Assembly: GCA_903875045.1 (NCBI GenBank)
Contig: CAIQUS010000128.1
Location: 1-44,236, forward strand
Direction of reading: 5' to 3'
Origin: an uncultured Bacteroidales bacterium
GTDB taxonomy: Bacteria; Bacteroidota; Bacteroidia; Bacteroidales; FEN-979
Length of the DNA stretch: 44,236 bases
In this document: positions 4,301 to 29,396 of the stretch, piece by piece
Numbering within the stretch: position 1 is the stretch's first letter
Layout: every line of letters starts with the position of its first letter
Notes under the pieces: generated by a model
The model's database searches: none
Told to the model about the DNA's origin: nothing
The model's input: the letters and a program-made list of their open reading frames with translations, nothing else
Position numbers and translations under genes: made by a program

Positions 4301-5667
4301 GGACTTCTTATGGCATAGATCTCACTTTTATCACTGCCTGCGGACCGGTTTCATCTTTTCCATGGAATGAAGGGTTTGAAAATGGCGGAAGCATCCCTGC
4401 CTGCTGGATACAGGAACAGGTAAACAGTTCAGGCATTAACTGGACTTTTATCTCCGGCAACGGTACCATAAATCCCGTTTCCGCCCATGGGGGCAACTTA
4501 AATGCCTGCCTGAAGGATGTTACATCACAGAGCAACAAAACCAGGTTGATAACACCTCCTTTCAACCTCACATCCCTGATCAGTCCCCAGTTAAAATTCT
4601 GGCATGTACAATCCTTATACAGCCCCGACCAGGATACACTGATTGTTTTCTATAAAACTTCATTCGCAGGTACCTGGATACAGCTGGCCAAATATTCCTC
4701 CAATATAACAACCTGGACCCAGGAAACGCTGAATTTGCCAAATACAGAGAGTACCTGTTACATCGCATTTGAAGGTAATGCCTGCTGGGGATATGGCGTT
4801 TGTGTCGACGATGTTTCCATCACAGGAACAGCGAAAATTTTATCGGTTTCTCCCACAAACCAAAATGTTACACCCCCCGCCGGAAACACGGTTTTCAATG
4901 TGACCTCAAACACCGGCTGGACGGCATCCAGCAATCAACCCTGGTGTACCGTTACAAACGCAGGTACCGGAAACGGATTGATTACATCTGTTTATCTGCA
5001 AAATATTTCCACAACACCCAGAGTGGCAACCCTAACAGTATCCGTAGCCGGGCTGACCCCTGTGGTGACAACGGTGACACAGGAAGGAGTTGTTGATAAG
5101 GTGTTAAACCTTACCCTCTTCCTCGAAGGTTTATTCAACGGCACAACCATGAACAAGGCAAAGAATGCCACCGGGGATCAATTCGCCGGTACGGTGGCCG
5201 ACCAGATCACCCTGGAATTGCATCATTCAGCCTCACCATATCCGATTGCCGGAGGACCTTACACCGTCAATGTAAATACCGATGGTACCGCATCTGTAAC
5301 CGTACCTGCTTCGCTGGGTTCGAGTTATTATATTGTGGTGAAACACCGCAACAGCCTTGAAACATGGAATGCAAGCCCGTTGTCGTTCAGTGGTGCCAGC
5401 ATGAGTTACAACTTCACCAGTGCTGCCGGGCAAGCCTTTGGGAATAATCTCAAACCGGTGTCGGGGAAATTTGTCATCTTTGCCGGCGATGTAAACCAGG
5501 ATGGAATTGTGGATGCCGGCGATCTGGTTTCTGTGGACAATGGCGCCGCAAACCTCATCAGTGGTTACCTCGCCAGTGATGTAAATGGCGATGGCATTGT
5601 AAATTTGGTTGATTTAGAATTGGCCGGTGCAAATGCCACATTTTTTGTGGCAAAGTTAACTCCATGA
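1375..5667 (+). CDS. Giant secreted propeller/Fn3/MAM-like protein with C-terminal dockerin-like module
   Basis: A 1430-residue exported protein of unknown ligand. The start at 1375 (MNFKPLLFVILLGF, cleaved near NAQ) is preferred over the in-frame ATG at 1282, which would overlap the nuclease gene and bury the signal peptide. The domain order is: signal 1-21; a repetitive propeller-like domain at about 110-530; Fn3-like at about 533-630; an Fn3-like plus MAM/cleaved-adhesin-like pair at about 633-895; a second copy of that pair at about 896-1152; a BACON-like domain at about 1154-1239; and the shared C-terminal module at 1243-1430. That module holds two Ca-binding loops, DVNQDGIVDAGD and DVNGDGIVNLVD, of dockerin type I form. 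There is no T9SS domain. The MAM and BACON folds suggest binding to protein or glycan, but no catalytic motif was seen. Confidence 0.85.
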   Translation: MNFKPLLFVILLGFSVSIMNAQDKPAVPTLTGTGEFKGETPPLRDIPAMSAAEYQLMKLQADKKLLNKKLRKRFYPFKATALPKGSDAVWQKTMGDAAVSNAPILNFDGQTSPYYPPDCNGAAGPNHYMQTINSTYAIYNKSGTLMAGPTNMNLLFGTVTGSGCNDGDPLILYDEQASRWLAVEFSICGANDYMLIAVSTTSDPTGTWYKYSFDVADMPDYEKFGIWQDGYYMADNNASSNDIYVFQRSVMLTGGTSPGMVAFDNPNRPSSIDGFMCIPPVDNDGAFAPAGAPGIFIAFNDDAIAGGSDQLWIYELAVNWTTPSSSTFGRVQQLAVSPFDSDFGNDWTNIAQPGTTQQLDAIPQVIMNVPQYRNFGTYQTIVCCHTVDVDATDHAGVRWYELRRGTQTSGNWTVRQQGTYSPDIHSRWMGSISLNGSGKIGLGYSVSSSTVYPGIRYTGQSSSAYNAASGIMDIPEEVIHTGSYAQTGYERWGDYSAMSVDPTDDQTFWFTTQYIGTGGARKTKIASFKFGNTPTVTTTAASAIAGTTATLNGMVNPNGLATTYYFQYGLTTSYGSQTTTTSAGSGTTAISVSANITGLVVATTYHYRLVGVNSDGTTNGSDLTFLTLGAAEVTTTAASAITQTTATSGGNVTSDGGSPVTARGVCWATTANPVASGNHTTNGTGTGVFTSSITGLSASALYHVRAYATNANGTYYGTDLTFTTTCGLVSSFPWNEGFENGGTIPACWTQEQVNSSGIYYTFITGSGNNNPVSAHGGTLNACLKDVTATDNKTRLISPQINLSGITGATLTFWHTQAVWTPDQDQLIVYYRTSTTGTWTALATYTASITSWTMETITLPGGTNDYYIAFEGNAKYGYGVCIDDVSITGNAPAQPIVTTTAVTSISPTTAISGGNVTSPGSSSVTARGVCWGTSANPAITGNHTTDGTGAGIFTSSLTGLSPSTTYHIRAYATNASGTSYGIDLTFITACGPVSSFPWNEGFENGGSIPACWIQEQVNSSGINWTFISGNGTINPVSAHGGNLNACLKDVTSQSNKTRLITPPFNLTSLISPQLKFWHVQSLYSPDQDTLIVFYKTSFAGTWIQLAKYSSNITTWTQETLNLPNTESTCYIAFEGNACWGYGVCVDDVSITGTAKILSVSPTNQNVTPPAGNTVFNVTSNTGWTASSNQPWCTVTNAGTGNGLITSVYLQNISTTPRVATLTVSVAGLTPVVTTVTQEGVVDKVLNLTLFLEGLFNGTTMNKAKNATGDQFAGTVADQITLELHHSASPYPIAGGPYTVNVNTDGTASVTVPASLGSSYYIVVKHRNSLETWNASPLSFSGASMSYNFTSAAGQAFGNNLKPVSGKFVIFAGDVNQDGIVDAGDLVSVDNGAANLISGYLASDVNGDGIVNLVDLELAGANATFFVAKLTP
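3271..4833 (+). repeat. Internal tandem duplication, 789 bp (Fn3-like + MAM-like unit)
   Basis: Unit 1 is 3271-4059 and unit 2 is 4060-about 4833. Each encodes an Fn3-like domain with a GVCW motif, then a MAM-like domain opening SFPWNEGFENGG and closing YGVC(I/V)DDVSITG. The reading frame is kept across the duplication. Many codons are shared, which points to duplication within the gene rather than convergence. Confidence 0.8.
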
Positions 5668-5725
5668 TTTCAGCAACATCAGTATCACATGCCCAATAGA
5701 CCATAATATCAAAATCCGTTTTCTT

Positions 5726-8700
5726 ATGAAAAACATCATTCTTGCATTGTTGCTATCTGTTACCATCCATCCGGATTCAATTTTTGCCCAGCAAAAGATT
5801 TTTCAACCCACTACCGTGAAAAAAGCCGTCTATTCTGATGCGATTCCCTCACTGCTTGACCTGCCAGTGATCTCCCCCCGGCCCGTGCGTGCGGAAACCA
5901 ATGAAGATGAGGTTGAAAACGAAACCAACTTGCATGAATCGCGTAATCTACCCCCGAATAAGTTTTTACAAACACAAGATCCTGCGCTGCAGGAAGCTGT
6001 CAAAGATAACATGCCTGTGCCGATGGCCCCTATTCAGAATTTTGACGGGATCAGCAATACGTGGGGTGTTTATCCGCCCGACACACAAGGAGATGTTGGC
6101 CCTGGCCATTATGTTCAGGTAGTTAACCTTGGTTTTCAGATATGGAATAAAACAGGCACCTCTCTTTATGGTCCCGCTAATCTCAGTACAATTTGGACTG
6201 GGATTCCTTCTCCATGGAATAACACAAACAATGGCGACCCTATCGTATTGTACGATCAGGCTGCAAACCGATGGATGATTTCACAATTCTCATTGCCGAA
6301 CACAACTCAGTATGCTATGCTGATCGCCATTTCACAAACTGATGATCCTACCGGGGCCTGGCACCGGTATGTTTTTGAATTCGGCAGTAAAATGCCCGAT
6401 TATCCGAAATTCGGCGTTTGGCCCGATGGTTATTACATGGCCATTAACCAGTTTATCAGCGGCTCGAGTTGGGGCGGCGTTGGCGCATGTGCTTTCGAAC
6501 GCTCGAAAATGCTCACCGGCGATCCGACAGCCCGGATGGTTTACTTCGACCTGGGAGCCGCAAGCGACCCGGGCGGCATGCTGCCAGCCGATTGGGACGG
6601 CACAACAGCACCTGTTGCCAATGAGCCAAACTACTTCTCCTATTTTAATGACTGGTCTTCCACAACCACCCGGTATTTAAAAATATGGAATTTTCATGTT
6701 GACTGGACCACCACCACGAATTCAACTTTTTCAGAAGCGGCAAGCCTTGTTACGGCTTCCTTTAATACTGTTGATGGCAATGTCATTCCACAATCGGGCA
6801 GTACTGTTTTGCTGGAAGCTCTGGGTGATCGCTTGATGTACCGCCTGCAATACCGGAACTTTGGCGATCACCGGTCGATGGTGACAAATCACACCGTTGA
6901 TGCCAACGGAACCGGCAGGGCTGGTATTCGCTGGTATGAGTTGAGAAATACGGGAAGCGGATGGTCAATTTATCAGCAGGGAACGTATTCTCCCGATGCT
7001 ACTTACCGGTGGATGGGCAGTATAGCCATGAATGCCAGCGGTGACATTGCGCTTGGATATTCTGCATCAGATGCTACTATCTTCCCTTCAATCCGATACA
7101 CCGGCAGGTTAGCCGGTGACCCTTTGGGACAAATGACTTTTGCCGAACAAACCATCATGGCCGGTACAGGCTACCAGTCTGGTACGGCTGCCCGATGGGG
7201 CGATTACAGTATGATGTCGGTCGATCCTGTTGATGACGCAACCTTTTGGTACACCACCGAATATATTCAGACTTCAGGCAGTGTCAGCTGGAAAACCCGG
7301 ATAGCATCTTTTCTTTTTGGACCTGTTGTCCCCGGAGCTCAATTCTCGGCAAACAACACCAAACCCTGCCTGAACGCTACTGCAATTTTTACAGATCAAA
7401 CCACGGGAATTCCTGCCTCCTGGTCGTGGTCGGTTACACCTGCCACTTTTGTATACACGGATGGAACAACCAGCACATCGCAAAATCCACATATTAAATT
7501 CACCGCATATGGCAATTATACCATTGCATTAACCGCCACCAATGCCCAGGGCAGCAACACCATGACCAAAACCAATTATATATCAGTAAATGCAGCAAAC
7601 GCTGATTTTACTGCCAGTTTAACTACCCTGGTTGTTGGAAATTCAACCACTTTTACAGATGCATCCACTTGTGGAATATCATCCTGGTCCTGGAATTTCG
7701 GTCCCGGCGCATCACCGGCAACTGCCAGTACCATGGGCCCTCATGTGGTAACTTACAACACAACCGGGCAAAAAACCGTTACTTTAACTGTGAACGGCTC
7801 TGTTATCCAAACTAAAACCAATTATATCACCGTAACCGATCCAATATTTAACATCACCAATGGAACAGTTACCACGTGCACCGGTAATTTTTATGATTCG
7901 GGCGGATCTGCAGGCGCTTATCTGGATAATGAAACCTTTACCGAAACATTTTTACCGGCAACCACCGGGGCATTGATCAGGTTTACTTTCAGTTCGTTTA
8001 GTACCGAATTGGGTTACGACACGCTGACGATCTATAACGGGATAAATACTTCTGCCCCCGTTATCGGCAAATATCACGGAACCACAAGCCCCGGAACCGT
8101 TACGGCATCAAATGCCTCCGGAGCACTTACCTTCCGGTTTCATTCAGATGCCAGTGTTACAAGTACGGGATGGGCTGCAGCAATCAGTTGCTACAGTACA
8201 GCAATCCCTCCTGTTGCACAATTCACCGCATCTTCAACATCTCCCGCGATTAATTCAACGGTAACATTTTCGGATCAGTCAACCAATTTTCCAACTTCCT
8301 GGGTATGGAGTTTCAGCCCGAATACCGTGGTTTATACGGGTGGAACCACCGCCACATCGCAAAACCCGCAGGTGCAATTTACATCATTGGGACAATATAC
8401 GGTAAGCCTCATCGCTACCAATGCTTACGGTTCTGATCCGGAGGTAAAAACAAATTACATCAATGTGGTTCCATTCACTTACTGCATTCCCACCTATACA
8501 ACGGGTACCAGTGCCGGTGATTATATTTCCCTTGTACAGCTTGGAACCATAAACAATTCTACAAGTGCCTCCTTAAGCCCTTATTACACCTATTACAGCA
8601 GTTTAACTACAGATTTGACCCCAGGCAACGCCTACACCATTACCCTGAGTCCCGGAACCTATACCAGTGGTAACAATATCTCCGTTTGGATTGACTACAA

Positions 8701-9490
8701 TCAGAACGGGGCTTTTGAAACCTCCGAGAAACTGGGAAATGTGATTATTGCAGCAAAACCGGCAACCGGAACCATTGGTTTCACGGTTCCTGCCACTGCA
8801 ACAACCGGTCCGGCCAGGATGCGTGTAAGAGAAGTATGGAATAACAGTGCCTTTGATGCCTGTTCAAATTATACTTACGGCGAAACCGAAGACTACAACG
8901 TCAATATATTGAGTCTTTACAAAAATCTGAACCTTACCGTTTTTCTGGAAGGCCTTTTCAACGGCACCACCATGAATAAGGCAAAAAATGCCACCGGCGA
9001 TCAATACCCTGGTACCATAGCCGACCAGATCACACTGGAACTCCATAACTCAACCTCTCCTTATTCACTGGCAGGTGGCCCTTATACAGCCAATGTAAAT
9101 TTGGATGGCTCGGCATCTGTTACGATTCCTGCTGCACTGGGTTCGAGTTATTATATCGTTGTGAAACACCGGAACCACCTTGAAACCTGGAATGCCAGCC
9201 CATTGTCTTTCAGTGGTGCATCCATAAGTTATAACTTCAGCAGTTCTCCCGGACAGGCTTTTGGGAATAATCTGAAACTCATGTCCGGAAAATATGTATT
9301 ATTCGGAGGCGATGTGAACCAGGATGGCATTATCGATGCAGGTGACATGATTGGCATGGACAATGATGCCGCAAACTTCATCAGTGGTTACTTCTCGAAT
9401 GACGTGAATGGTGATGGCGTTGTCAATTTGGCGGATATACAACTCGTGGGTGCAAATGCGGCTGTTTTTGTGGCAAAGATAACACCCTGA
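5726..9490 (+). CDS. Giant secreted propeller/PKD/CUB/GEVED protein with C-terminal dockerin-like module
   Basis: A 1254-residue exported protein, paralogous at both ends to the gene before it. The domain order is: signal peptide 1-22 (exit near IFAQQ); propeller-like domain at about 102-532, sharing the pattern GDPIVLYDQAANRWMISQF; PKD at about 535-622 and 625-707; CUB-like at about 709-827; a third PKD at about 829-915; a GEVED domain at about 918-1063 (SVWIDYNQNGAFETSE, YGETEDYNV); and the shared module from 1068 to the end with loops DVNQDGIIDAGD and DVNGDGVVNLAD. The centre is unrelated to the preceding protein, so N- and C-terminal parts were kept while the middle was exchanged. There is no T9SS domain. 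It begins 58 bp after the previous stop and probably shares its transcript. Confidence 0.86.
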   Translation: MKNIILALLLSVTIHPDSIFAQQKIFQPTTVKKAVYSDAIPSLLDLPVISPRPVRAETNEDEVENETNLHESRNLPPNKFLQTQDPALQEAVKDNMPVPMAPIQNFDGISNTWGVYPPDTQGDVGPGHYVQVVNLGFQIWNKTGTSLYGPANLSTIWTGIPSPWNNTNNGDPIVLYDQAANRWMISQFSLPNTTQYAMLIAISQTDDPTGAWHRYVFEFGSKMPDYPKFGVWPDGYYMAINQFISGSSWGGVGACAFERSKMLTGDPTARMVYFDLGAASDPGGMLPADWDGTTAPVANEPNYFSYFNDWSSTTTRYLKIWNFHVDWTTTTNSTFSEAASLVTASFNTVDGNVIPQSGSTVLLEALGDRLMYRLQYRNFGDHRSMVTNHTVDANGTGRAGIRWYELRNTGSGWSIYQQGTYSPDATYRWMGSIAMNASGDIALGYSASDATIFPSIRYTGRLAGDPLGQMTFAEQTIMAGTGYQSGTAARWGDYSMMSVDPVDDATFWYTTEYIQTSGSVSWKTRIASFLFGPVVPGAQFSANNTKPCLNATAIFTDQTTGIPASWSWSVTPATFVYTDGTTSTSQNPHIKFTAYGNYTIALTATNAQGSNTMTKTNYISVNAANADFTASLTTLVVGNSTTFTDASTCGISSWSWNFGPGASPATASTMGPHVVTYNTTGQKTVTLTVNGSVIQTKTNYITVTDPIFNITNGTVTTCTGNFYDSGGSAGAYLDNETFTETFLPATTGALIRFTFSSFSTELGYDTLTIYNGINTSAPVIGKYHGTTSPGTVTASNASGALTFRFHSDASVTSTGWAAAISCYSTAIPPVAQFTASSTSPAINSTVTFSDQSTNFPTSWVWSFSPNTVVYTGGTTATSQNPQVQFTSLGQYTVSLIATNAYGSDPEVKTNYINVVPFTYCIPTYTTGTSAGDYISLVQLGTINNSTSASLSPYYTYYSSLTTDLTPGNAYTITLSPGTYTSGNNISVWIDYNQNGAFETSEKLGNVIIAAKPATGTIGFTVPATATTGPARMRVREVWNNSAFDACSNYTYGETEDYNVNILSLYKNLNLTVFLEGLFNGTTMNKAKNATGDQYPGTIADQITLELHNSTSPYSLAGGPYTANVNLDGSASVTIPAALGSSYYIVVKHRNHLETWNASPLSFSGASISYNFSSSPGQAFGNNLKLMSGKYVLFGGDVNQDGIIDAGDMIGMDNDAANFISGYFSNDVNGDGVVNLADIQLVGANAAVFVAKITP

Positions 9491-9575
9491 GTTCCGGTTT
9501 TTCACCGGCATCATTCCTTTCAGGGCAGGCAACTTAAAATAACTAATTGTTAAATATTTACTTTTGACAACATGC

Positions 9576-9607
9576 TTGTTTTTTAAATGACTTTTTTTAT
9601 ATCTTTG
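9576..9607 (+). promoter_or_regulatory. Candidate Bacteroidota promoter for the 9738 gene
   Basis: TATCTTTG at 9600-9607 fits TAnnTTTG, with a TTG at 9576-9578 placed 21 bp upstream as a possible -33 box. Transcription would begin near 9614, leaving a leader of about 125 nt. The remainder of the 247-bp intergenic region (9491-9737) is A/T-rich and shows only a weak 5-bp hairpin at 9494-9508 without a T run. Confidence 0.5.
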
Positions 9608-9737
9608 AACCCCTTGTCCGACACATGGGTATTATGTGATAAAACCCGGTCAACATCACTTCCCTGCCAAATTATGTCATCACATCCGGAACAACAAACC
9701 TAAATAATACATAGTTTACCCTGAAAACTAAACCATT

Positions 9738-12700
9738 ATGATTCACAAATTACTCTTTAAGCACAGTTTTGCAGCCTTACTGTTTACAGTTTTAGCTTGT
9801 TTATCCGGATTAAATGGATGGGCTCAGTTTTCAATTGCAGCCGGAGGTACAAATTATACGCAGGATTTTTCTTCATTGGGAACCACTGCAGGAACCTGGA
9901 CGGATAACACCACCCTCACCGGCTGGTACGCCCGAACTGATGCAACGGCCTCCATAACAACTATCGGAGTGAATACAGGAGCTACAACTGCTGCCGGCCT
10001 TTATTCATTTGGTGTATTAGGAACAAATGCCCTGGCAGACAGGGCACTGGGGTATGCCCCCAGTAACGGATATACCGGTGCATCTGGTGTTGGAAAGGGG
10101 TATGTTGGCTGGCGGCTGAAGAATAATACAGGAAGTGCCATAACCTCAATTACCATAATCTGGACAGGGGAACAATACCGTAAAGAAAATAATGCAGCAG
10201 CACACACGCTGAATCTGTTTTACCAAACCGGGGTAACTGTAACAAGCCTTGTAACCGGAACCTGGACACCTGCATCTTCAACATTTACAAGTCCGGTTTT
10301 TGGAGCAACCGCCGCCGCTGTCCTCGATGGAAATGCCCCTGCAAACAGGGTTGCAAACATTACTGTTAACCTTACGGTGTCGATTGCTGCCGGAGATGAA
10401 ATTATGCTTCGGTGGGATGACCTGAACGATGCCGGAAATGACCATCAGATGGCAATTGATGATGTAAGTGTGAATGCAACAATAAGCAGTGGATTATTAA
10501 CCCCGCCAGTGCTTACCCCAGATGGCACAAATAACAATGTCGACAACAATATCGACATAACCTTTACTGATGATCCTTCATGGAGAGCAAACATCAACGC
10601 AGTTAAAATCGGAGGTACCGCGCTCACATTAACAACAGATTATTTTATTACCGCCGGAAATATCCAGTTAAAACCTTCCGGTGGAAATTTACTTTTAACC
10701 ACCACCGGCACTAAAAATATTACTGTCGAAGCCATCGGATATACCAATGCTCCTGTAACCCAGGTGATCCTTGCGGGAGTTCCTACTGCAAATTCTACCG
10801 CAACAATAAATTCCGCATTGGCCCAGAATATCACACGAACCATAACCTGTACTGCAAAAGACCAGTATAACAACCTGGTTTCCGGTTATACCTTTATGTA
10901 TGATGTAACCATCACAAACAACGATGTAACCACTGCCGAAATATATACCATTGATGGCGTTGCACTTACTGCAACAACCAATAACGTGAGTGTACTGGCT
11001 TTGACAAATGCCAGCGGAGTGGCAACTTTTCCAGCTACACTCCCTGCCATCATCGATGGTGCTGACGGAATCAGCATTCAGGTTCAGTTAAACAATGGAA
11101 CCACCAATGTGGGCACCCCGTTTTCCTTTATACAGTCTTTGATGCCAACCATAACCGTTGGAACTGTTACCTCTTTTGGCAATCAATACATTAATAGTTC
11201 GTCAGCCGAAAAAACGTATATTGTATCAGGGTCTAACCTTACTGCTGACATTATAATTACCCCTCCCGTCGGATTTGAAATTTCCGCCACCACAGGTTCC
11301 GGTTTTATTGCAAACCCAAACACTATTTCCCTTACCCCAACGAGCGGTACAGTAAACGCCACCATCTTTGTTCGCTTTTCTCCAACGTTGATCCAGCTAT
11401 ATTCCGGAAACATTACACATACCAGTACAGGCGCTACCCAGCAGGATTTAGCAGTAACCGGTACCGGTATCGCAGCTCCCCCGGGTTTGCCTTTTTCTGA
11501 AAATTTCAATTATACCCTTTCATCACTCCTTACCAACAATGGATGGGTTTCTCACAGCGGCGGCGGTACCGCACCGATTACGGTTACTGCTGCTTCAATT
11601 CTCTATCCCGGCTACCTTTCCTCAGGCATTGGTAACGAGGTAACCATGGCTACCTCAGGAGAGGACGATAATACGGTGTTTGCATCCCAAAACGCCGGAT
11701 CTTTGTATGCTTCATTTATTGTGAATGTTACTACTGCGCAAACAACCGGCGATTATATGGCCCACTTTGCAGCAACATCCGGTGCAGCGGCATCAACTTT
11801 TGCCGGAAGGATTTGGATCAAGAAAGATGCTTCCTCCGCAAATTTTGCATTTGGCGTTTCAAAATCTTCAACCGCAGCAAATATAAGTTATACCGGATTC
11901 AATTATGTTCCAGGAACTACTTATCTTCTTGTTGTTAAATATACTTTTGTCGCAGGAGTGACAAATGATATTGGTGCCCTTTTTATAGATCCGGCACTTC
12001 ATTCGGCAGAGCCCACTCCCACGATCATTACCTTACCCGCCGACAATGGTACCGCCGACCCCGCTCAGCTAACAAGTTTTTGTTTACGACAGGGCAGCAG
12101 CACTGCGGCTCCTACCCTCAAACTCGATGGAATCAGGATTGCCACAACCTGGGAAGATATTGTCGGGATTCTTTCTGCGCCAACCATTCAGGCAGATACC
12201 CTCACATTCAGCCTCCTGGCAACTACCGGTTTCACTGCGAACTGGACAAACGGAAACGGCTCAAGCCGTGCTGTATTTGTGAAGCAGGGCAATACCGGCA
12301 ATGCCGCACCGGCAGATGGCATTACTTACACAGCCAATCCGATTTTTGGTTCAATCGGATCAGAAATAGGATCAACCGGCTGGTATTGTGTGTATAATGG
12401 AACAGGCACCTCCGCTGCCATAACAGGATTGACAGCTTCAACCGATTATACTGTTCATGTTTGTGAATACAACGGTGGTTCCGGCAGCGAAAAATATAAC
12501 TCCGGCACTAATGTTACAAACCCGCTCGTTCAGGCAACCCCTTCCGGAGCTGTTGCTCCTGTTGTAACATCACCTACCGCTACAGCAATAACCGCGATTT
12601 CTGCCACACTAGGTGGAAATATCACCTCCGATGGTGGAAGTGCCATCACAGAACGGGGAACTTTATGGAGTACCTCTTCTCCGGTAACCATCAGCGACAA

Positions 12701-15293: not shown

Positions 15294-15297
15294 GCAG

Positions 15298-17542: not shown

Positions 17543-17550
17543 CAAATATA
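17543..17550 (-). promoter_or_regulatory. Candidate -7 box for the AraC-family regulator
   Basis: On the minus strand this reads TATATTTG, a TAnnTTTG match, about 75 bp before the GTG start. No clear -33 TTG is present at the ideal distance. Confidence 0.4.
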
Positions 17551-17716: not shown

Positions 17717-17723
17717 TATCTTG
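17717..17723 (+). promoter_or_regulatory. Candidate -7 box upstream of giant gene (TATCTTG variant)
   Basis: The context TTTTTATATCTTGCAACC closely resembles TTTTTATATCTTTGAACC at the promoter before the 9738 gene, differing at the end of the -7 box. If used, the leader to the ATG at 18073 would be about 340 nt. Confidence 0.35.
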
Positions 17724-18072
17724 CAACCAAATATTTATTCATTTAATGTATCCTGTTTTATGAAAAAATTCTACCAGCCACCTTTTTTTTCATGCATCGT
17801 TCCCTGGTCACCCACCATTGCTCAAATTGACCCGGAACAGGCTTCTGCCCCTCCTTATAAAGGGAAAACGGCTTGCAACGCCCCCGATCATTCGGGTATT
17901 GGCCCAGTCAACCAAGGTAACCGGCTTTGGTTCATGGAAATGGCATAAGGATATACTAAACTCCGGTTCCTCCTCTTCTGCTGCCATCTCTCCCGTATCA
18001 AAAAACAAACACATTATATATTTTCCCGCAAGTATTTATTTTTTTTGTAACCAAACACAAAACCAAATAATT

Positions 18073-21000: not shown

Positions 21001-24000
21001 GAAACATTCCCTTTGGTAATTAATCGCAATCCTGGATCGAATGCCACCAACACGGTCACGATAAAACCAAATACCGGTGTAACTTCTGCCATCACAGGAA
21101 CTTTAACCAGTGGCCCGATTTTTAAAATCCTTACTGATTATTTTGTCATTGATGGTTCGAATTCTGGTGGAACAAGCCGCGATCTTACAATCACCAATTC
21201 CTATGCGACAACCCCGAATGTTATTCTGATCGGTTCGACCGGAACAACTCCGATCATCAAGGTAACTGTGAAAAATTGTGTGCTTATCAATGGAGTGAAT
21301 ACATCCACCGCCCTGATAATCAGTGATGGAACAACCTCAGGCAATGCCGGATATTTCAGCAATATTACCATTCAGAACAACAGCATTCAAAAGGCCTATG
21401 TAGGGGTTTACAGTATTGCGGTTGTGGCTGCCGGCAATGGCAGTCAACTAATCACAGAAAATCTAATGAATACTTCCGGGGCAAATGCGATTGCATTTAC
21501 TGGCGTTTATGTGCAGGGCTGCGATGGGGCTGTTGTCTCAAAGAATCTGATTGGAAATTTTGACGGCACTGGCGCTCAGGATGACAAAGCAGTCTGGTTT
21601 GCCACCGGAACCATTAATAGTACCATTGAGAAAAACTACATTACAACTTTGGTTTATTCAGGTACCGGCGGTTATGGTGGTCATGGAATTGCTGTATCCA
21701 CAGGGGCAACCGGTTCGAATATTATGATCAGAAACAACATGATCTCCAATATTTCCGGAGATGGATGGGCTCAATCTACGCTGGGGGATAACTCTCATGG
21801 CATTTACCTTTACTCGGTACAAACCGGGGTTAAAGTATACCATAACTCCATCAATCTTTATGGAAACACCTTAAATAAAACAGGTGCTTATTCCTATGGC
21901 ATATCACTTGGAACCGGAAGTACTGCAGAAATTATAGACAATATTATTGTTAACAACCTTGGCTTGTTATCTGCAACCGGTCTGGGTAGTATCGGAATCT
22001 TCCTTCAAACCGGCAATACACAGTTAGAGGCATGTAATTACAACGATATATGGGTAAATCCAACCGGATCCGGAGTTAAATATATCGGCATGATTGGCGC
22101 TACCGGGTATACCGATCTGGCAAGCTGGCAAACGGCAAGTGGCAAGGATGCAAACAGCGTTTCCGGAGATCCGAAATTTGAAGCCAACACCAACCTGCAC
22201 ATTCAACCTACTGTTATTTCGCCCGTTAGTGATGCCGGTATAACAGGATATGCCATTGATGATATTGATGGAGATGTCAGGTCTAATCCACCCGACATTG
22301 GTGCCGACGAATATACCTTTACACCACCTTCTGTTGACCCACCTACCAGTTTCACAGCCACTCCCTTTAGTTCACAGCAAATCGATCTTACTTTTGGCTT
22401 AAATGCAGCAAGCAACAATGTTGTCATTGTCTGGAACCTCACCGGAACTTTTGGAACGCCTTCCGGAACACCCCCTGTGGCTGGAGGATCATTTGCCGGA
22501 GGAACGATGTTATATAATGGTGCAACCAGCCCTGTAAATCATACAGGTCTCATTGCAAATACTATGTATTATTATAAAGTCTGGTCATTTGACGGTTCTT
22601 TTTATTCAGGCGGCCTTTCTGCCAGCGCAACAACGCTTGCGGTGATCAACCCTACTTTATTTGCAGCAATTGCTGTTGCAAAGGATGAAATCGATCTTAC
22701 CTGGGTGAAAAACCTTGCCGACAACAATGTGATGGTAGCCACCAACAGCACCAGCACCTTTGGAACTCCGGTTCAGGGAACAGCTTATGCTGCCACCGAT
22801 CCTATTACCGGTGGCGGTACCGTTATTTACAATGGACCGCTTTCCGGGTTTAACCATACCGGTTTGTCTACATCAACCCAGTATTTTTATAAAGCATTTT
22901 CGGTGGATGCTGCAAAGAACTACTCTGCCGGTGTAACAGCCAATGCAACAACCATGTGCGATTATGCAACCATTACCGGAACAACCCCCGGCACCCGTTG
23001 TGGTACAGGAACCGTAGAACTTGCTGCAACCGCCAGTGGTACCTTAAAATGGTTCGCAAATCCAACAGGCGGAACCTCCCTTTTTACCGGTTCACCATTT
23101 ACAACTCCTCCGATCAGCACAACTACCAGTTTTTACGTTTCTACCGAAGCAAGTACGACGGGTCCCGGCACTGCTATCATCGGAACAGGTACTTCTTCTT
23201 CAACCTCAGCAGGTTATACACCATATTATCCCTATTGGGAAAGCAGTAAAAATCAAATTTTATTCCTGGCGAGTGAGTTAACTGCTGCCGGGTTAGGCGC
23301 AGGAAATATAAACTCAATGGCGTTAAATCTTTCATCGGTTAGCACAACAGCCATGACCAATTTCACCGTATCAATGGGTGCCTCGGCATTAACCGCTTTA
23401 ACTACAACTTATGAAACGGGCCTGACTGATGTTTATACAAACGCCTCCTATATGCCCGCCGGAACCGGTTGGCAAACTGTTACCTTTTCAACACCGTTTG
23501 CATGGGATGGAACTTCTAATATTATCCTTCAGATTTGCCAGGGTAACAATACCGGGTATTCTACGGGTTCTGGTGTTTATTATTCTACCACCACATTCAA
23601 TTGTCACCACTATGGTTACCAGGATGGCGGAACGGGCTGTGCGATGACTACACCCACTTATAACTATGTTGGAATGTACCGTCCCAATATTAAGTTTGGC
23701 GGTTTGGTTACGGCAACATGTGCCAGTCCCCGCACAGGAGTTCTTGCCACTGTAAACGCACCTCCGGCATTAACTGTCAGACCCGACACCACAATTTGTA
23801 ACAACGCAGTAAGAACCCTTGCTGTTGTTACTGGCGGCTCAGATTTTGACACTTACTTGTGGGGCCCCGTTACCAACCTGTTTGAGGATGAAGCATGTTC
23901 AATCCCTTACACCGGAAATAGTTTCCTGACAGTTTACTACAAATCAACTTCGGCAGGCATTCACTCCTATACCTGTACGGCGCATAAGGTAATCGGTGAA

Positions 24001-27000
24001 TGTATCAATACAGCGACATCAGTAATAACCAATTTACCGGCAAGTCCTGCATCTACTGCAACACCGCCTGCACTGTGCATCAGTGGCACTTCAGCATTAA
24101 CAATTGCTCCCGCAACAGGGTATGGCACTGCTACTTTCCAGTGGCAAAACTCTTCTGATAACAGTATATTTACCGATATTGCCGATGCAACTTCTCTCAC
24201 TTATTCCACCCCTGTACTTACCAGTACTACCTATTATAAAATGGCGGTAAAACTTGGTGCAGCAACGTGTTCAGAATCAACTGTTGCAACGGTTACTGTT
24301 AATGATCCATCTATTACCTCAACAACTCCTGCCACCCGTTGTGGTTCAGGAACAGTAACATTGGGGGCAACGGCCAATATAGGTTCCACGTTGAACTGGT
24401 TTCCGTCTGCAACCTGCGGTACAAGCCTCGGAAGCGGCACATCCTTTACAACGCCGGTTATTTCAACCACAACACCCTATTGGGTTGAAGCATCTACCGG
24501 CGGTACGTCATTCAATGTCGGTTTGACTGCAAACACTCAGGCATCAGGACCTTATGGTCCTTATGGAATGTTTTTCGCCACAACCAAGGCATCAACAATT
24601 AGTTCAATTGATGTATACCCCGGTGTAGCCACCACATTAATTATAACGATGAACGATGATCTGGGCGCTGTTGTCGATTCCCGGTCATTTGTAATTACCG
24701 CCGGCGAAGTCAGTTCCACCGTCCTTAAAACACTTCCATTGGGTTTCTGTGTACCTGCCGGCGTAACAGGATGGTCATTGAATTATAATGTAAACCTTTA
24801 TCGCGGATCAGGATCTTATACATATCCGTATACAAACAATGGTTTTTCTATCACTGGTAACACCTATGATGGCAACCCTATAACATCAGGAACCCGCTAC
24901 TATTACTATAATTGGGTGATTTATCAAACATGTGCCGGTCCGCGCGTACAGGTTGACGCTACAGTAACACCTGCTCCGGCCATTACCGCCAATGCAGCCC
25001 CCCTGGCAATGTGTATAGGAGGAACAACCTTGCTGGATGCAAGCAGTACCAACTCCGGTTATATCTACACCTGGTCACCTGCAACAATACCTCCAGGCGG
25101 ACCTTATGTTTCAGCCTCTCCGGAAGTAACTACCTTATATACTGTAACCGGTACTGACAATTCGGGTGGACCTTACGATGGGTGTGCTGAAATCGCTACA
25201 GTAACTGTTACCGTTAACCCTTCTCCATCCTCAGTAGCGGCTACAGCCAGCATTTACCAGGTTTGCGATGCGGTTACTCCTTATGATTTGTACTCCACCT
25301 CTAACAGCAATTCTTTTGTACACTCCACTTACGTTTCCCCCACCAAAGAGGGCGGGTTTGATCAGGGAGATACATTTTTATCAAACGGCTGGACTGAATT
25401 AAACGGTACGTATAACAACTGGTTTGTCGGAACGGCTGCCGGTGTGAAAGAAGGCCTGAATGCTGCTTATGTAGGAACAGGGTTCGTTGCTACCGGCAAT
25501 GCAGCCGTAAACCATTTCTACAGAGATGTAGTAATCCCGGCAGGGTATACGAATATTGCGCTGCAGTTTTATCTGAAGATGCCAGTTATAGATGGTGGGT
25601 ATGATTATTTTGAAGTATACACAACCACTCCGGCCTTTACACCAGTGGTGGGTGTAGAACCTTTTGATAACAATGTGAATTATCTGTTGTGGTATTATAA
25701 TACTTCAACCATATTCAGTGGGTATACCCTGCACACCATCAATCTTCCCGCTACTCTAGCCGGCACTACGGTACGTCTGGTCTTTACTTACCTGAACGAC
25801 GGGGTTGCTCCTCATGCGGTGGCGGCTGTGGATAACATTTCTGTTACTGCCGCTTTGAATATTCCTGCAACTTATTCCTGGACTTCCATTCCCGACGGGT
25901 TTACTTCTTCGTTGCAAAATCCTGTAGGGCTTACACAAACTTCAACAACATCCTATGTGGTTACGGCAACAAATAGTTTTGGCTGTTTTGCTACCGACAC
26001 CACCACCGTTTCAACGGTTACCAGTGCTTCCATCGTTACAAATCCGATGTATGTTGCTAAATGTGCCGGGGAAACAGCAAAATTTTCGGTTGTTGCAGCA
26101 GGTCCCGGATTAACATACCAATGGAGAAAAAATTATACGAATATCCCAATCGTTGATAACCCGAGTGCCGGTACAGATACATTAACTCTTCTCAATATTT
26201 CCTCTGCCGATGCTGACATTTACGATGTGAGTGTGCTTGCTTCCTGCGGATCGGCTGTGTTCAGCGATACTGCTTCATTAGCCGTTCATCCGACACCAAC
26301 AGCAGTAGCAGCAAGCAATTCACCTGTCTGCGAAGGTTCCGTATTAAACCTTACAGGTACAACCGATATCGGAACTGTATTCAGCTGGTCTGGTCCTGCC
26401 GGATTTACCTCATCCGTCGAAAATCCCTCCATTGCTTCGGCAACGCTGACTGCGGGCGGTACATATTCATTCACAGCTACCCTGGGTGGTTGTGCCAGCA
26501 CCGGAGCAACAGAAGTTGTTGTAAACCCGTTGCCATCTGCCCTCGCAATTGTGCCTTCTGCACCAACTATTATTGAAGGGGCAATTCAGGCGTTGGCCGC
26601 TTCCGGCGGAAATGTTGTTTCTACCTTGTTGAGCGAAAATTTCAATGGTGCAGAGGTTCCAGGCTGGACAGCAATCAATAATTCTTCAGGTGGCAATCCT
26701 GCGCTGGCTGCATGGATGTTATATCCTTCCGACCCATTAAACGTCCAAAGCAACGACAATTCCAATTATATTGCCTCCAACAGTGATGCACAGGGTTCAG
26801 GAGGCACTACCAGTACCGAACTGATCACACCTGTTATCAATACAACCGGATATACCAATTTGTCATTATCGTTCTGGCACTATTTTAAGGCTCTTTCCGA
26901 TGAGGGTAAAATTGAAGTTTCGACCGATGGTGGTGTTTCCTGGTTATCTCCTGCCTTGATTTCATACACAACCACACAGGGAACTGCAACTGCATGGGCT

Positions 27001-28182
27001 CACGCGGTCGTTGATTTGTCCGCCTATATAAACCAGACCAATTTACAATTACGATTCAGTTATAATTCGTCATGGGGATGGTATTGGTGCGTTGATAATG
27101 TTTCTATTACCACTACATTAGCCTCCCCGATCACCTGGTTGCCGATCACCGGATTGTACACCGATGCACTGGCCACTACTCCTTATCTGGGAACTGATGC
27201 TGCAACAGTGTATGCAAAACCTGCCAGCACAACAACATACACTGCAACAGCTACTTCACTTGCAAGTTGTACCAGAACAGCGAATGTGATTGTTACGGTT
27301 TTGAACAAAGCTACAGTTACAACCGATGCAACCACTTCAGTGGCCTCAACCACCGCTACCTCCGGGGGTACTGTTACTTCTGATGGCGGTTCCGCCGTTA
27401 CTGCCCGTGGTGTTTGTTACGGAATATCCCTTAATCCATCGCTTACAGACAATGTACTTACCGATCCGGGAACCGGAACGGGACATTATGTGAGCAACCT
27501 GACCCTGCTTTCCCCGGCAACACTTTACCATGTTCGTGCATACGCTACCAACAGTGCGGGCACCTCTTACGGTGCAGATGAGGTATTTACCACTCTTTCC
27601 GGTACCAAAACCATCAACCTGAGCGTGTTCCTTGAAGGTTTGTATAACAACGGCGGGTTAATGAGAAAAGCACAAGACGAATTTGGTGATCATTTCCCCG
27701 GCACTGTGGCCGATCAGATTACGGTTGAACTGCATGATGCATCAAACTATGCCACTGTTATTTACAATGCAGGTCTTATTGACCTTAACATGGATGGTAC
27801 CGCTACGGTAAGTATTCCCTCCACCTATTCCGGTTCATACTATCTTACCATCAAACACCGCAACAGTATTGAAATTACCAGTGCCTTGCCGGTTGATCTG
27901 TCGGGTGGTGTTCTTGACTACAACTTTGCCACCAATCTATCAAATACTTACGGCGACAATCTGAAAGCAATGGGTGAGGGGATCTATGCGATTTATGGTG
28001 GGGATGTTGACCAGGATACCGGTATTGGAGTAAGTGATATGGTTCTTGTTGACAATCAGTCTGCTGAGTTTGGTGTAGGATACATTCCTGAAGATGTTGA
28101 CGGAGATGGTGGTGTTGGTGTAAGTGATATGGTTATAGTTGACAACAATTCTGCTAACTTTGTAAGCGCTATTCTACCATAG
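18073..28182 (+). CDS. 3369-aa secreted beta-helix/Ig-like giant protein with C-terminal dockerin-like module
   Basis: The largest gene here. The start at 18073 gives a clean signal peptide (MKRLLLILVAVIMISGISLG|Q); the in-frame extension to 17818 has no such signal. Residues about 25-800 form a right-handed parallel beta-helix (repeated GIY, N-N and ITNNKIY-type turns) ending DIGADEFD at about 795. A second beta-helix at about 934-1416 ends DIGADEYT. Two Fn3-like domains follow (about 1418-1626), then a chain of Ig-like domains, some with Cys motifs (TPGTRCGTGTVEL, TPATRCGSGTVTL). A cleaved-adhesin/MAM-like domain lies at about 2850-3015 (ENFNGAEVPGWTAIN, WYWCVDNVSI), an Fn3-like domain with GVCYG at about 3080-3176, and the shared module from 3181. 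Its loops are DVDQDTGIGVSD and DVDGDGGVGVSD. There is no catalytic motif and no T9SS domain. It is likely a surface adhesin or polysaccharide-binding protein. Confidence 0.85.
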   Translation: MKRLLLILVAVIMISGISLGQVTVSGSNGADATYATLTNALGAFAAINAADQSGKDIIITITADVTTEAGTNSLNAGLWKSFTINPVGARTVSGTVATAPMINLNGASKVTIDGLNTGGNSLTISNLSTSATALTSTIRLIADASNNIITNCSILGSAAVPLGTNGGNIFISTGTTNGNDNNTISYCKIGPAGTNLPSKGIFANGTTTNANFANSGITINNCEIYDYFLTGGCAGIYALTGNTDWTITNNKIYQTASRTFTAAGIMYGIYFVNATYGNNIQITSNTIGYATNAGTGTFTLLGSVAGAFQGIYLGAQSTAAIACNINSNLISDISMTSSTGTFYGIYNATTASSNTININSNTVRNIATVTTTGIHYGIYSGAATTLSVNGNTLNNITRTGSGALYAIHMMSPTTATFNNNIISNLAINHATSASGIYGIYGNSSSVNVTANGNTIFNLTSTSTGSLTIAGIREYGISGNKVYQNNTIYNLSSGGGTATIYCIYQAAASSPNALDISGNKIYTINGAATIYAFYQSGSSAAVNIYKNKIYDISGFGAAAAVYGIYIGGGTTNNLYNNYVGDLRATAATGLNAINGIYGSATSTYNVYYNTVYLNATSSSATTFGTSCVYFSSTATAFNQRNNILVNLSTPAQEATNVATNGISACLRRSGGTAATVPANYSTTSNNNDFWCKPASGTNNHLSYVEGTSTVTNPKNTIADLKTFMVNRDQASKGENPAFVSTTGSDATFLHISTATPTQLESGAANIATFTDDYEGDIRQGNAGYPVQVNGGGTAPDIGADEFDGMPLDLTPPSIVYTPLPNTASIASRTLVATITDASGVGSGANQPVLYWKINSGAYTGPVAPTSIAGSNYTYDFGLGVVAADVVSYFIVAQDNAATPNVGSFPAGATVTATPPLASAGPAAPSTYTILGTLCGSKTVGVSGDYATLTAAIADLNAKELCGPLTFLLLDASYTNPAETFPLVINRNPGSNATNTVTIKPNTGVTSAITGTLTSGPIFKILTDYFVIDGSNSGGTSRDLTITNSYATTPNVILIGSTGTTPIIKVTVKNCVLINGVNTSTALIISDGTTSGNAGYFSNITIQNNSIQKAYVGVYSIAVVAAGNGSQLITENLMNTSGANAIAFTGVYVQGCDGAVVSKNLIGNFDGTGAQDDKAVWFATGTINSTIEKNYITTLVYSGTGGYGGHGIAVSTGATGSNIMIRNNMISNISGDGWAQSTLGDNSHGIYLYSVQTGVKVYHNSINLYGNTLNKTGAYSYGISLGTGSTAEIIDNIIVNNLGLLSATGLGSIGIFLQTGNTQLEACNYNDIWVNPTGSGVKYIGMIGATGYTDLASWQTASGKDANSVSGDPKFEANTNLHIQPTVISPVSDAGITGYAIDDIDGDVRSNPPDIGADEYTFTPPSVDPPTSFTATPFSSQQIDLTFGLNAASNNVVIVWNLTGTFGTPSGTPPVAGGSFAGGTMLYNGATSPVNHTGLIANTMYYYKVWSFDGSFYSGGLSASATTLAVINPTLFAAIAVAKDEIDLTWVKNLADNNVMVATNSTSTFGTPVQGTAYAATDPITGGGTVIYNGPLSGFNHTGLSTSTQYFYKAFSVDAAKNYSAGVTANATTMCDYATITGTTPGTRCGTGTVELAATASGTLKWFANPTGGTSLFTGSPFTTPPISTTTSFYVSTEASTTGPGTAIIGTGTSSSTSAGYTPYYPYWESSKNQILFLASELTAAGLGAGNINSMALNLSSVSTTAMTNFTVSMGASALTALTTTYETGLTDVYTNASYMPAGTGWQTVTFSTPFAWDGTSNIILQICQGNNTGYSTGSGVYYSTTTFNCHHYGYQDGGTGCAMTTPTYNYVGMYRPNIKFGGLVTATCASPRTGVLATVNAPPALTVRPDTTICNNAVRTLAVVTGGSDFDTYLWGPVTNLFEDEACSIPYTGNSFLTVYYKSTSAGIHSYTCTAHKVIGECINTATSVITNLPASPASTATPPALCISGTSALTIAPATGYGTATFQWQNSSDNSIFTDIADATSLTYSTPVLTSTTYYKMAVKLGAATCSESTVATVTVNDPSITSTTPATRCGSGTVTLGATANIGSTLNWFPSATCGTSLGSGTSFTTPVISTTTPYWVEASTGGTSFNVGLTANTQASGPYGPYGMFFATTKASTISSIDVYPGVATTLIITMNDDLGAVVDSRSFVITAGEVSSTVLKTLPLGFCVPAGVTGWSLNYNVNLYRGSGSYTYPYTNNGFSITGNTYDGNPITSGTRYYYYNWVIYQTCAGPRVQVDATVTPAPAITANAAPLAMCIGGTTLLDASSTNSGYIYTWSPATIPPGGPYVSASPEVTTLYTVTGTDNSGGPYDGCAEIATVTVTVNPSPSSVAATASIYQVCDAVTPYDLYSTSNSNSFVHSTYVSPTKEGGFDQGDTFLSNGWTELNGTYNNWFVGTAAGVKEGLNAAYVGTGFVATGNAAVNHFYRDVVIPAGYTNIALQFYLKMPVIDGGYDYFEVYTTTPAFTPVVGVEPFDNNVNYLLWYYNTSTIFSGYTLHTINLPATLAGTTVRLVFTYLNDGVAPHAVAAVDNISVTAALNIPATYSWTSIPDGFTSSLQNPVGLTQTSTTSYVVTATNSFGCFATDTTTVSTVTSASIVTNPMYVAKCAGETAKFSVVAAGPGLTYQWRKNYTNIPIVDNPSAGTDTLTLLNISSADADIYDVSVLASCGSAVFSDTASLAVHPTPTAVAASNSPVCEGSVLNLTGTTDIGTVFSWSGPAGFTSSVENPSIASATLTAGGTYSFTATLGGCASTGATEVVVNPLPSALAIVPSAPTIIEGAIQALAASGGNVVSTLLSENFNGAEVPGWTAINNSSGGNPALAAWMLYPSDPLNVQSNDNSNYIASNSDAQGSGGTTSTELITPVINTTGYTNLSLSFWHYFKALSDEGKIEVSTDGGVSWLSPALISYTTTQGTATAWAHAVVDLSAYINQTNLQLRFSYNSSWGWYWCVDNVSITTTLASPITWLPITGLYTDALATTPYLGTDAATVYAKPASTTTYTATATSLASCTRTANVIVTVLNKATVTTDATTSVASTTATSGGTVTSDGGSAVTARGVCYGISLNPSLTDNVLTDPGTGTGHYVSNLTLLSPATLYHVRAYATNSAGTSYGADEVFTTLSGTKTINLSVFLEGLYNNGGLMRKAQDEFGDHFPGTVADQITVELHDASNYATVIYNAGLIDLNMDGTATVSIPSTYSGSYYLTIKHRNSIEITSALPVDLSGGVLDYNFATNLSNTYGDNLKAMGEGIYAIYGGDVDQDTGIGVSDMVLVDNQSAEFGVGYIPEDVDGDGGVGVSDMVIVDNNSANFVSAILP

Positions 28183-28223
28183 TTCTTTTATACTCTATAC
28201 TAATTATTAAATAAATTACAAAG

Positions 28224-29396
28224 ATGGTTCAAAATAAAAAATTATCAACACCAGCTAATCTGTTGGCGATAATCCAAATAGTTATCCTTTATTATTTGGT
28301 TGTATTCACAGGGACTGCTCAGGCTCAAACTCCTTCGTTTTTTTGTGATATACGCAACGAAACGTATGTGTCAGCAAATATTTTTGAGTTTGATCTTTAC
28401 ATCACGCGTACAAGTATATTACCATTGGAGCTTGCCTGTTTCCAATCTGCGATTAAAATTAACACGGCTTTTATCAATGGAGGGGACATCACCCCCTCCA
28501 TTGTTACCAGCTCATCTGAATTTAACGCCCATCAGGTTCCTCTGGCAATCAACTTTGTTCAAGGCAGTAACAATTGTATCAAACTGGCTCCTCGTTTACC
28601 CCGGACAAATTACACTGCCCCTGTTGCAACAAATGGCACTATGGTTGCATCAAATATCGGCACCAAGGTATGCAGGATACGCTTATCAAATACCCTCTCT
28701 TTTGGTTCTTCTCCGATAAATTATGCTTGGAATTATACAGTTAGTCCTTATAATTCAATAGTTTCCGCTTTTGTTCCTGGCACTCCCGCCATAAATACCA
28801 TTGTTTCATCGGCAAATGATTTTGCTGTAAGTAATAATGTAAATGTATTTTTGGAAGGTCTTTACAACGGGTCAGAAATGAACAAGGCTAAAAATGAATT
28901 TGGTGATGGCCAGTTTAACGGACCTGTTGCTGACCTTGTAACCATTCAATTAGCTACTGCCCCAGGTTCAATCGTTAAAGAATTTTCAAATGTTAATCTG
29001 TTACAAAATGGAACGTGTTCCATCGGGCTTCCTGCTTCATCAGCAGGCAGCTATTATATTGTTGTAAAACATCGGAATAGCATCGAAACCTGGAGCGCCA
29101 ACCCAGTTACATTCTCTTCGAATCCAATATCTTATAATTTCACCAATGCTGCCAACAAAGCCGCTGGTGATAATATGAAAGATTTCAGCAATGGCTTTTT
29201 CGGAATTTACGCCGGGGATGCCGACCAGGATGGTGGCGTTGGAGTGTCTGACATGGTTCTTATTGACAATCAATCTGCCCTATTTGCTTCCGGTTACCTG
29301 GTAGAAGATATAGATGGTGATGGCGGTGTTGGTGTTAGTGACATGACCATTGTCGACAATAACTCTGCGGCATTTGTTTCAGTTATTTATCCGTAA
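28224..29396 (+). CDS. Secreted protein joining a cohesin-like N domain to the dockerin-like C module
   Basis: 390 residues. A long signal peptide covers 1-36 (IIQIVILYYLVVFTGTAQAQ). Residues about 37-205 form a domain shared with the products of 29438 and 32554 (opening TPSFFCDIRNET, then FEFDLYITRTS, and IGTKVCRIRLSNT). Its length and strand pattern resemble a cohesin fold; this is a reading by eye. Residues 206-390 are the shared C-terminal module (NVFLEGLYNG, YYIVVKHRNSIETWSA) with loops DADQDGGVGVSD and DIDGDGGVGVSD, closest to the module of the upstream giant. It is the only protein here with both parts, and could polymerise or act as an adaptor if the two domains bind each other. It begins 41 bp after the giant gene, probably in one operon. 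Confidence 0.82.
   Translation: MVQNKKLSTPANLLAIIQIVILYYLVVFTGTAQAQTPSFFCDIRNETYVSANIFEFDLYITRTSILPLELACFQSAIKINTAFINGGDITPSIVTSSSEFNAHQVPLAINFVQGSNNCIKLAPRLPRTNYTAPVATNGTMVASNIGTKVCRIRLSNTLSFGSSPINYAWNYTVSPYNSIVSAFVPGTPAINTIVSSANDFAVSNNVNVFLEGLYNGSEMNKAKNEFGDGQFNGPVADLVTIQLATAPGSIVKEFSNVNLLQNGTCSIGLPASSAGSYYIVVKHRNSIETWSANPVTFSSNPISYNFTNAANKAAGDNMKDFSNGFFGIYAGDADQDGGVGVSDMVLIDNQSALFASGYLVEDIDGDGGVGVSDMTIVDNNSAAFVSVIYP

Follow-up and report, generated by a model that had tools for sequence, protein, structure and literature searches.

A putative surface complex of cohesins and X-dockerins in Bacteroidales metagenome-assembled genomes, with a new family of cohesin-like domains and T9SS-tailed scaffoldins

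Clostridial cellulosomes are held at the cell by Gram-positive surface anchors, and the scaffoldin CipA of Clostridium thermocellum carries a cohesin, an X domain and a dockerin, in that order, in one chain. Here we describe a C-terminal module of similar layout which ends five neighbouring proteins of an uncultured Bacteroidales bacterium, together with a second domain, the N domain, which we propose as its partner. Both are encoded on contig CAIQUS010000128.1 (C128), the whole of which, 44,236 bases, is called the window; it comes from a 5.96-Mb genome in 253 contigs that is 99.1% complete. We think it likely that the module and the N domain belong to a cohesin/X-dockerin surface complex of Bacteroidales metagenome-assembled genomes (MAGs), in which scaffoldins with tails of the type IX secretion system (T9SS) would present a new cohesin-like family to dockerin-tagged proteins.

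The nearest published system that we found is the predicted cellulosome-like complex of Candidatus Stygibacter (Cloacimonadota), for which the section on the complex places dockerins at the C-termini of S8 and C25 peptidases and gives a tandem-cohesin scaffoldin a C-terminal surface-attachment domain (PMC8542988). The same paper names the 'Planctosome' of freshwater Planctomycetes, a non-canonical cellulosome-like structure for polypeptide degradation. In the passages that bear on the subject, Bacteroidota single-cell genomes with Pfam dockerins are few and a cohesin appears only in a Christensenellales one (PMC10266427), two cellulolytic species have cellulolytic machineries without dockerin or scaffoldin (PMC6247017), a capybara gut community is described as having no cellulosomes (PMC8810776), and cellulosome components are assigned to MAGs of Defluviitaleaceae, Firmicutes and Jeotgalibaca (PMC8067321). 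Neither the module nor the N domain is named in the titles and abstract beginnings of the matches listed for literature on Bacteroidetes or T9SS cohesins and dockerins, non-cellulosomal pairs, and T9SS export without a C-terminal domain (CTD).

The C-terminal module as a putative X-dockerin

Five window proteins, P0001 to P0005, end in copies of the module that are 185-191 residues long in translation, each with the stop codon directly after a last residue that is Pro. Compared with the copy of P0001, the remaining four have identities of 78, 55, 42 and 50%, and FLEGL, SYY, KHRN, GD..QD, GY and the final P are among the elements invariant in all five. Every copy has two loops of the Dx[ND]xDG type, in the divergent form GVGVSD in both repeats of P0004 and P0005, so that the two dockerin-like calcium loops and the final Pro of the preliminary description are seen in all five. 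A hidden Markov model (HMM) of the five copies scores those same copies, by construction, at 310-328 bits (E 6e-98 to 1.3e-92). The genome holds two more matches, a weak one on contig C159 and a full-length one on contig C175, and because the latter, outside the window, reaches 183 bits (E 1.5e-53) against this HMM, the module is no chance resemblance. This sixth copy (locus L009) lies inside its protein, with an N domain and then a T9SS tail behind it; the terminal position is thus confirmed for the five window copies, but the earlier wording that it is always terminal does not hold. The protein in question (L009:1702-10128), of 2,808 residues, has tag, socket and anchor in a single chain.

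The position was followed in a survey of open reading frames (ORFs) from the window, L009, L052-L111 (seven relatives), L244-L261 (further genomes) and L171-L243 (73 named loci), in which complete, non-duplicate ORFs with the module at E <= 1e-10 were counted and C-terminal means within 25 residues of the stop. The 73 named loci were kept from at least 544 related stretches found in a named-genome scan, and come from Bacteroidales, Bacteroidetes, Lentimicrobium and Lentimicrobiaceae MAGs; two related genomes have at least 33 module matches each. The module is C-terminal in 196 of the 202 surveyed ORFs and lies deeper inside in 6, which disposes of the possibility, raised at the outset as fatal to the idea of a terminal tag, that family members are mostly internal. 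A crude criterion finds a hydrophobic segment at the N-terminus of 90 of 98 tagged ORFs with a complete start, whose median length is about 1,235 residues. In genome G081 (L053-L071) tagged proteins often have a few extra residues past the module, for example YPGKK. Very short tagged proteins, with open frames of 267-289 residues (L197, L201, L224, L226), hold little beyond a signal peptide, a small GGSA/SVGEP-type region, after which a T9SS tail usually comes, and the module. A broader relative of the module is present in many copies, with most matches starting near model position 28 or 58, in G087, G109, G151, G155, G213 and G250, where no N domain match was found.

Sequence and predicted fold support reading the module as an X-module plus dockerin. 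A profile of 15 diverse copies (A3) matches solved dockerins including the CipA chains 2b59_B (E 3.4e-4) and 3kcp_A (E 1.1e-3), the match to these two spanning profile positions 112-178 only. Pfam Dockerin_1 (PF00404) matches 12 of 15 module members at E <= 0.1; in a protein scan of the window it places P0001 above the cut-off and P0002 and P0003 below, with no match in P0004 and P0005, and in a six-frame search P0001-P0003 are above it. The calcium loop-helix repeat of dockerin type I, about 22 residues long, is found in duplicate in the 111 of 125 modules that a regular expression parsed (14 were dropped), the helices being of low confidence in the model discussed below. Ligand positions 3, 9 and 12 are kept in 97, 104 and 108 of the 111 first loops and in 110, 105 and 109 of the second, while the expression itself fixes, wholly or in part, loop positions 1 and 5. 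Over 13 variable positions the two repeats agree at 45.5% in the same module, 41.7% in different proteins of the same genome and 28.1% in different genomes. None of 5000 within-genome shuffles reached the within-module value (0.455 vs 0.417); the effect above the genome background is small and variable, with little of it in CAIYJU (0.04), JAPLDG (0.08) and CAJAXK (0.19). Dockerins whose two binding faces are equivalent show agreement of this kind.

The AlphaFold2 model of P0005 (pLDDT 76, pTM 0.50) has a beta domain at about residues 202-330 (blocks mostly 77-94) and then, in the dockerin part (pLDDT about 59-73), two helices at the two calcium loops. The best Foldseek matches to this model, at ranks 1-4, are chains of the CipA scaffoldin in 4fl4 and 3kcp (E 2.6e-5 to 6.6e-5; 371-384 columns), which we take to be CohI9-X-DocII, as the entry titles and the profile A3 match support. 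The likeness to an X-module/dockerin pair that had been proposed from the layout gains support from this model, and a structure lacking the two calcium-binding loops, which would have spoken against it, is not what was predicted.

The T9SS type A sorting domain (TIGR04183) holds the same C-terminal place as the module and has no sequence match to it. It is above cut-off in P0006, P0007 and P0009 and just under it in P0008 (21.6 vs 23 bits); it was not found in P0001, P0002, P0003 and P0005, nor in P0004 by our own T9SS model, which started from the four T9SS tails of the window and was extended in iterative rounds. The remark that the five tagged proteins lack the T9SS domain that others in the window have is borne out by the two models taken together. 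Our model finds a T9SS tail in none of the 196 C-terminal-module ORFs, and one follows the module on the same ORF once only among the 202, in L009, so that such a succession, another possible objection to the tag, is not usual. The module as a variant of the T9SS tail was set aside, as it has no match to T9SS tails and is internal in L009, where it precedes one.

The two endings are exchanged between near-identical paralogues. At L185 (KTt_bin-0938) a module-ended protein and a T9SS-tailed neighbour share 82.6% identity over 711 residues, and its identity to a second such neighbour is 70.5%; the common part includes the N-terminal signal region, and past it one paralogue goes directly into the module, while the others have about 400 and about 700 more residues and then a T9SS tail. 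Tagged and T9SS-tailed proteins compared in bulk show homology in 81 of 128 at E < 1e-8, but as common repeats probably inflate this count, we argue from the L185 case alone. Paralogues carrying either ending would also fit a module that is itself a new T9SS-type secretion signal, a CTD whose dockerin loops serve secretion: it sits at the place of the T9SS tail, T9SS tails are present in 98 of 100 relatives, and the use of a CTD-less fusion as a control in the passage concerned of Flavobacterium johnsoniae T9SS work (PMC10994853) means that tagged cargo needs some route out. We consider this unlikely, since the module matches dockerins and not T9SS tails, since in L009 it comes before an N domain and a T9SS tail, and since its co-occurrence with the cohesin-like domain in genomes, described below, would be left unexplained.

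The N domain as probable cohesin-like partner

P0005, P0006, P0007 and the C175 protein have the N domain in common; those of P0006 and P0007 are 89% identical to each other and 36-37% identical to that of P0005. With a model of the P0007 domain from its own alignment (A5; pLDDT 89, pTM 0.86), Foldseek places cohesin chains, for the most part of type II, at ranks 1-17 (E 1.4e-5 to 4.3e-4), as judged by entry titles and, for complexes, chain letters, and the top matches are type II cohesins solved with dockerins. The model thus shows the cohesin jelly-roll fold, and the N domain is the probable receptor of the module. As a Pfam cohesin it found no support by sequence (PF00963, hhalign and a PDB profile search), before the fold comparison gave cohesins, and PF00963 has no match within the window; since it is no recognised cohesin by sequence, we call it cohesin-like and treat it as a separate family.

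Module and N domain occur together across genomes. Among 100 relatives, some module match is present in 24 genomes and a strong one (E < 1e-40) in 13; the N domain is found in 12, namely in 11 of the 13 strong-module genomes vs 1 of the 87 others, and this lone genome (G060) has four stops inside the match. Some module match is present in 32 of 247 genomes of the order and a strong one (E < 1e-30) in 9, with the N domain in 8 of these 9 vs 0 of 238 others, weakly so in G187 (E 6e-7) and G247 (E 7e-11). Fisher tests, uncorrected for kinship, give 6e-12 for the relatives and 3e-14 for the order; G000, G022 and G081 belong to both samples. The preliminary description had left a choice between a sorting, an anchoring and a docking tag, and had suggested looking for co-occurrence with the '28224-type' N domain. 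This co-occurrence is seen in both samples, and as the model of the likely receptor matches cohesins of type II, and its gene is found in the same genomes as the module and frequently beside it, docking is strengthened and sorting has become the weaker option.

The module could instead be a calcium-stabilised cap or self-associating unit without a dedicated partner, with the N domain an adhesion domain that accompanies it but is unrelated. The binding of a partner is, after all, something that we infer, jelly-roll folds are common, CBM3-bearing chains also stand in the Foldseek lists, and 23 order genomes have partial module relatives but no N domain. This is nevertheless quite improbable, as the full-length module and the N domain both co-occur and adjoin, and as the top Foldseek matches are cohesins in the case of the N domain and CipA chains in that of the two-domain P0005.

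The architectures fit a docking pair as well. Among 49 complete cohesin-like ORFs, the module is also present in 22, a T9SS tail in 17, both in 1 and neither in 9. Of the 31 cohesin-like genes that have no module themselves, 18 have a module gene immediately upstream in the same orientation, with open frames within 100 bases; for 1 it is directly downstream, for 5 it is farther off and for 7 there is none in the available stretch. These loci are no free sample, because most were chosen for the module. L189 has the order of the window: tagged protein, cohesin-like domain with module, cohesin-like domain with T9SS tail. A single full-length module with one or two N domains forms the same pair in G199 (L245), G022 (L253), G018 (L257) and G017 (L258). 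L251 and L260 each encode a protein with three tandem cohesin-like domains, whose T9SS-like tail scores 25 bits in L251 and 14 bits, below the survey cut-off, in L260. At L244, L245 and L246 a tagged protein of only 244-257 residues stands beside a cohesin-type protein, and such short pairs are perhaps the minimal form of the system; the N domain of L246 was found in the order-genome scan and missed by the N domain model in the locus scan.

A proposed surface complex of cargo, adaptor and anchors

In the complex that we propose there would be three roles, those of tagged cargo, adaptor (cohesin-like domain plus X-dockerin) and anchor (cohesin-like domain plus T9SS tail). The module would be an X-dockerin tag, C-terminal on the cargo proteins P0001-P0004 and on many proteins in related genomes, where T9SS substrates have their tail, and the N domain of P0005, P0006 and P0007 would be the matching cohesin, of a family missed by Pfam. 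P0006 and P0007, proposed as surface anchors because they combine a cohesin-like domain with a T9SS type A tail, would cross the outer membrane and stay attached to the cell surface in the role of anchoring scaffoldins. P0005 would be an adaptor, bridging or polymerising, and chains of adaptors are possible because cohesin and dockerin stand in one chain. The calcium-loaded dockerins of cargo and adaptor would clip onto T9SS-anchored cohesins, giving a surface complex on the cellulosome plan with proteases and adhesion-type cargo. As the window has two dockerin forms (P0001-P0003 vs P0004/P0005) and two cohesin-like groups (P0005 vs P0006/P0007), a two-tier layout is allowed, though this is a guess.

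Cargo without a T9SS tail perhaps leaves the cell bound to a cohesin-T9SS protein. In a more specific form of this idea, which is conceivable but which we regard as doubtful, the dockerin tag would be a ride-on ticket for the T9SS: cargo would dock in the periplasm on a cohesin-CTD carrier, both would be exported together, and the swap of endings would switch between direct and carried export. If this were true, a single T9SS substrate could export and display many other proteins.

The cargo was scanned in 48 of 98 complete tagged ORFs, with the module removed and P0005-type adaptors included, and 25 of the 42 Pfam families are listed. The domains are GEVED (11), PKD_4 (10), CUB (10), BACON (7) and MAM (6), and among enzymes and others there are subtilase (S8; 5), Sortilin-Vps10 (4), peptidase C25 of the gingipain family (3) and peptidase M14 (2); no glycoside hydrolase is among the 25 listed families. 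This looks like a protein-degrading and adhesive repertoire, with putative substrates to match. Residues 259-344 of the tagged P0003 match the Pfam Shr-like heme/haemoglobin-interacting domain (E 4.8e-19).

Apparently there is a second, ordinary cohesin-dockerin set besides that of module and N domain, with 33 Pfam cohesin (PF00963) matches and 17 dockerin matches, three of them in the window, in the window's genome at E <= 0.1. Cohesin and dockerin matches lie on contigs C33, C34, C52, C64, C141 and others, and near each other on C52 and C34. Pfam cohesins are also seen in 4 of the 48 tagged proteins, so that the two cohesin sets may be linked. One may ask whether the X-dockerins bind these ordinary cohesins of the host, the N domain having some other role, given that PF00963 matches are so abundant in this genome and present in G027 and G081 too; but G022, G024 and G030 have module and N domain without a PF00963 match at E <= 0.001, while many genomes with PF00963 cohesins have no strong module, which makes such pairing very unlikely.

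Several points weigh against the proposed cohesin/X-dockerin complex. We infer the binding, and the model leaves the export of CTD-less cargo unexplained. In the P0005 model the dockerin part is of low confidence, and the alignment behind it (A4) has single-domain N rows spread over both halves; the whole-P0005 TM-scores are 0.20-0.24 by query length, with a pilin at rank 5 and then CBM3-bearing glycosidases and type II cohesins, and because these scores are low we read the match to CipA as agreement in domain order, not in placement. The TM-scores of the N domain, 0.40-0.48 by query length, are modest. By sequence, 24 N domains gave no cohesin (PF00963) against Pfam and only a Gelsolin match (E 0.14), profile A5 against the PDB gave only an unrelated chain (E 2.2) and no cohesin, and hhalign of the N domain with Pfam-type cohesins of the genome and its relatives gave no convincing alignment, with Prob 0.6 and E 0.095 locally and, with one pair compared, Prob 4.3 and E 0.0029 globally. 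As for co-occurrence, the strong-module cut-offs were set after the scores had been seen, the genomes are not independent, and in the order sample the first 13-14 candidates per genome were scored. No N domain was found in one of the 9 strong-module genomes of the order (G237) or in one of the 13 among the relatives (G015), and the only N domain of G003, of 30 bits, is on a T9SS-tailed ORF adjoining the module ORF. The broader module relative, with weaker and mostly partial matches, is present in 23 order genomes, none with an N domain match.

The features of the window are given in Table 1. P0004, P0005 and P0006 are consecutive, each gap being 41 bases. A gene at 162-1364, upstream of P0001, ends without the module and resembles that of a secreted endonuclease. 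A promoter and terminator scan gave 55 and 28 sites vs shuffle means of 42.1 (standard deviation 6.7) and 19.7 (5.5), within two standard deviations, and we draw no argument from it.

Table 1. Positions of tagged cargo, proposed scaffoldins and their domains in the window.
Feature	Position	Strand	Remarks
P0001: tagged cargo, MAM domains	1375..5667	+	module 5101-5664; Pfam dockerin part 5482-5619; start is the ATG chosen ahead of the signal peptide
P0002: tagged cargo, PKD + CUB + GEVED	5726..9490	+	module 8927-9487; dockerin part 9308-9448
P0003: tagged cargo, Shr-like HID + fn3 domains	9738..15293	+	module 14718-15290; dockerin part 15108-15251
P0004: tagged large cargo, Ig_7 domains	18073..28182	+	module 27613-28179, near-identical repeats (GVGVSDM twice); start chosen
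P0005: proposed adaptor scaffoldin, signal peptide + cohesin-like domain + X-dockerin	28224..29396	+	
Cohesin-like N domain of P0005	28326..28838	+	
X-dockerin module of P0005	28839..29393	+	
P0006: proposed anchoring scaffoldin, cohesin-like domain + T9SS type A tail	29438..32155	+	
Cohesin-like N domain of P0006	29507..30064	+	
T9SS type A sorting domain of P0006	31961..32149	+	26 bits, cut-off 23
P0007: second proposed anchoring scaffoldin, cohesin-like domain + T9SS type A tail	32554..34860	+	
Cohesin-like N domain of P0007	32623..33180	+	modelled alone; pLDDT 89, pTM 0.86
T9SS type A sorting domain of P0007	34627..34851	+	40.5 bits

Comparison with known systems

This work adds a cohesin-like family missed by Pfam and gives a meaning to an abundant C-terminal module. 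It suggests that bacteria with a T9SS can build cellulosome-like surface complexes for protein or adhesion work, with T9SS-tailed scaffoldins as anchors, and it raises the question of how dockerin-tagged proteases, some of the gingipain family, cross the outer membrane without a T9SS tail. As candidate orthogonal binding pairs, module and N domain are also of interest to protein engineering.

With CipA of Clostridium thermocellum (4fl4, 3kcp, 2b59) and the clostridial type II cohesin-X-dockerin the proposed system shares the putative C-terminal X-dockerin and the fold matches (Foldseek ranks 1-4 for P0005 and 1-17 for the N domain), and the domain order of P0005, cohesin-like, X, dockerin, is that of CipA. 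Clostridial cellulosomes differ in that here we find T9SS tails, proteases and adhesion-type cargo, and a cohesin family that Pfam misses. The 'Planctosome', which can be likened by its brief description in PMC8542988 only, has the idea of a polypeptide-degrading, cellulosome-like structure in common with it and belongs to a different phylum. In Candidatus Stygibacter the cohesins are recognised by InterProScan, GH18 and GH57 enzymes are tagged too, there is one large scaffoldin with carbohydrate-binding modules (CBMs), and the section on the complex describes no X-module and no Coh-X-Doc adaptor; what it does share are peptidases of families S8 and C25 with a dockerin tag and a scaffoldin of cohesins that has an attachment domain at its C-terminus (PMC8542988). 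With this precedent the general plan is known in another phylum, and what seems new here, in Bacteroidales, is the family of cohesin-like domains, together with the X-dockerin, an adaptor and the interchange of C-terminal endings.

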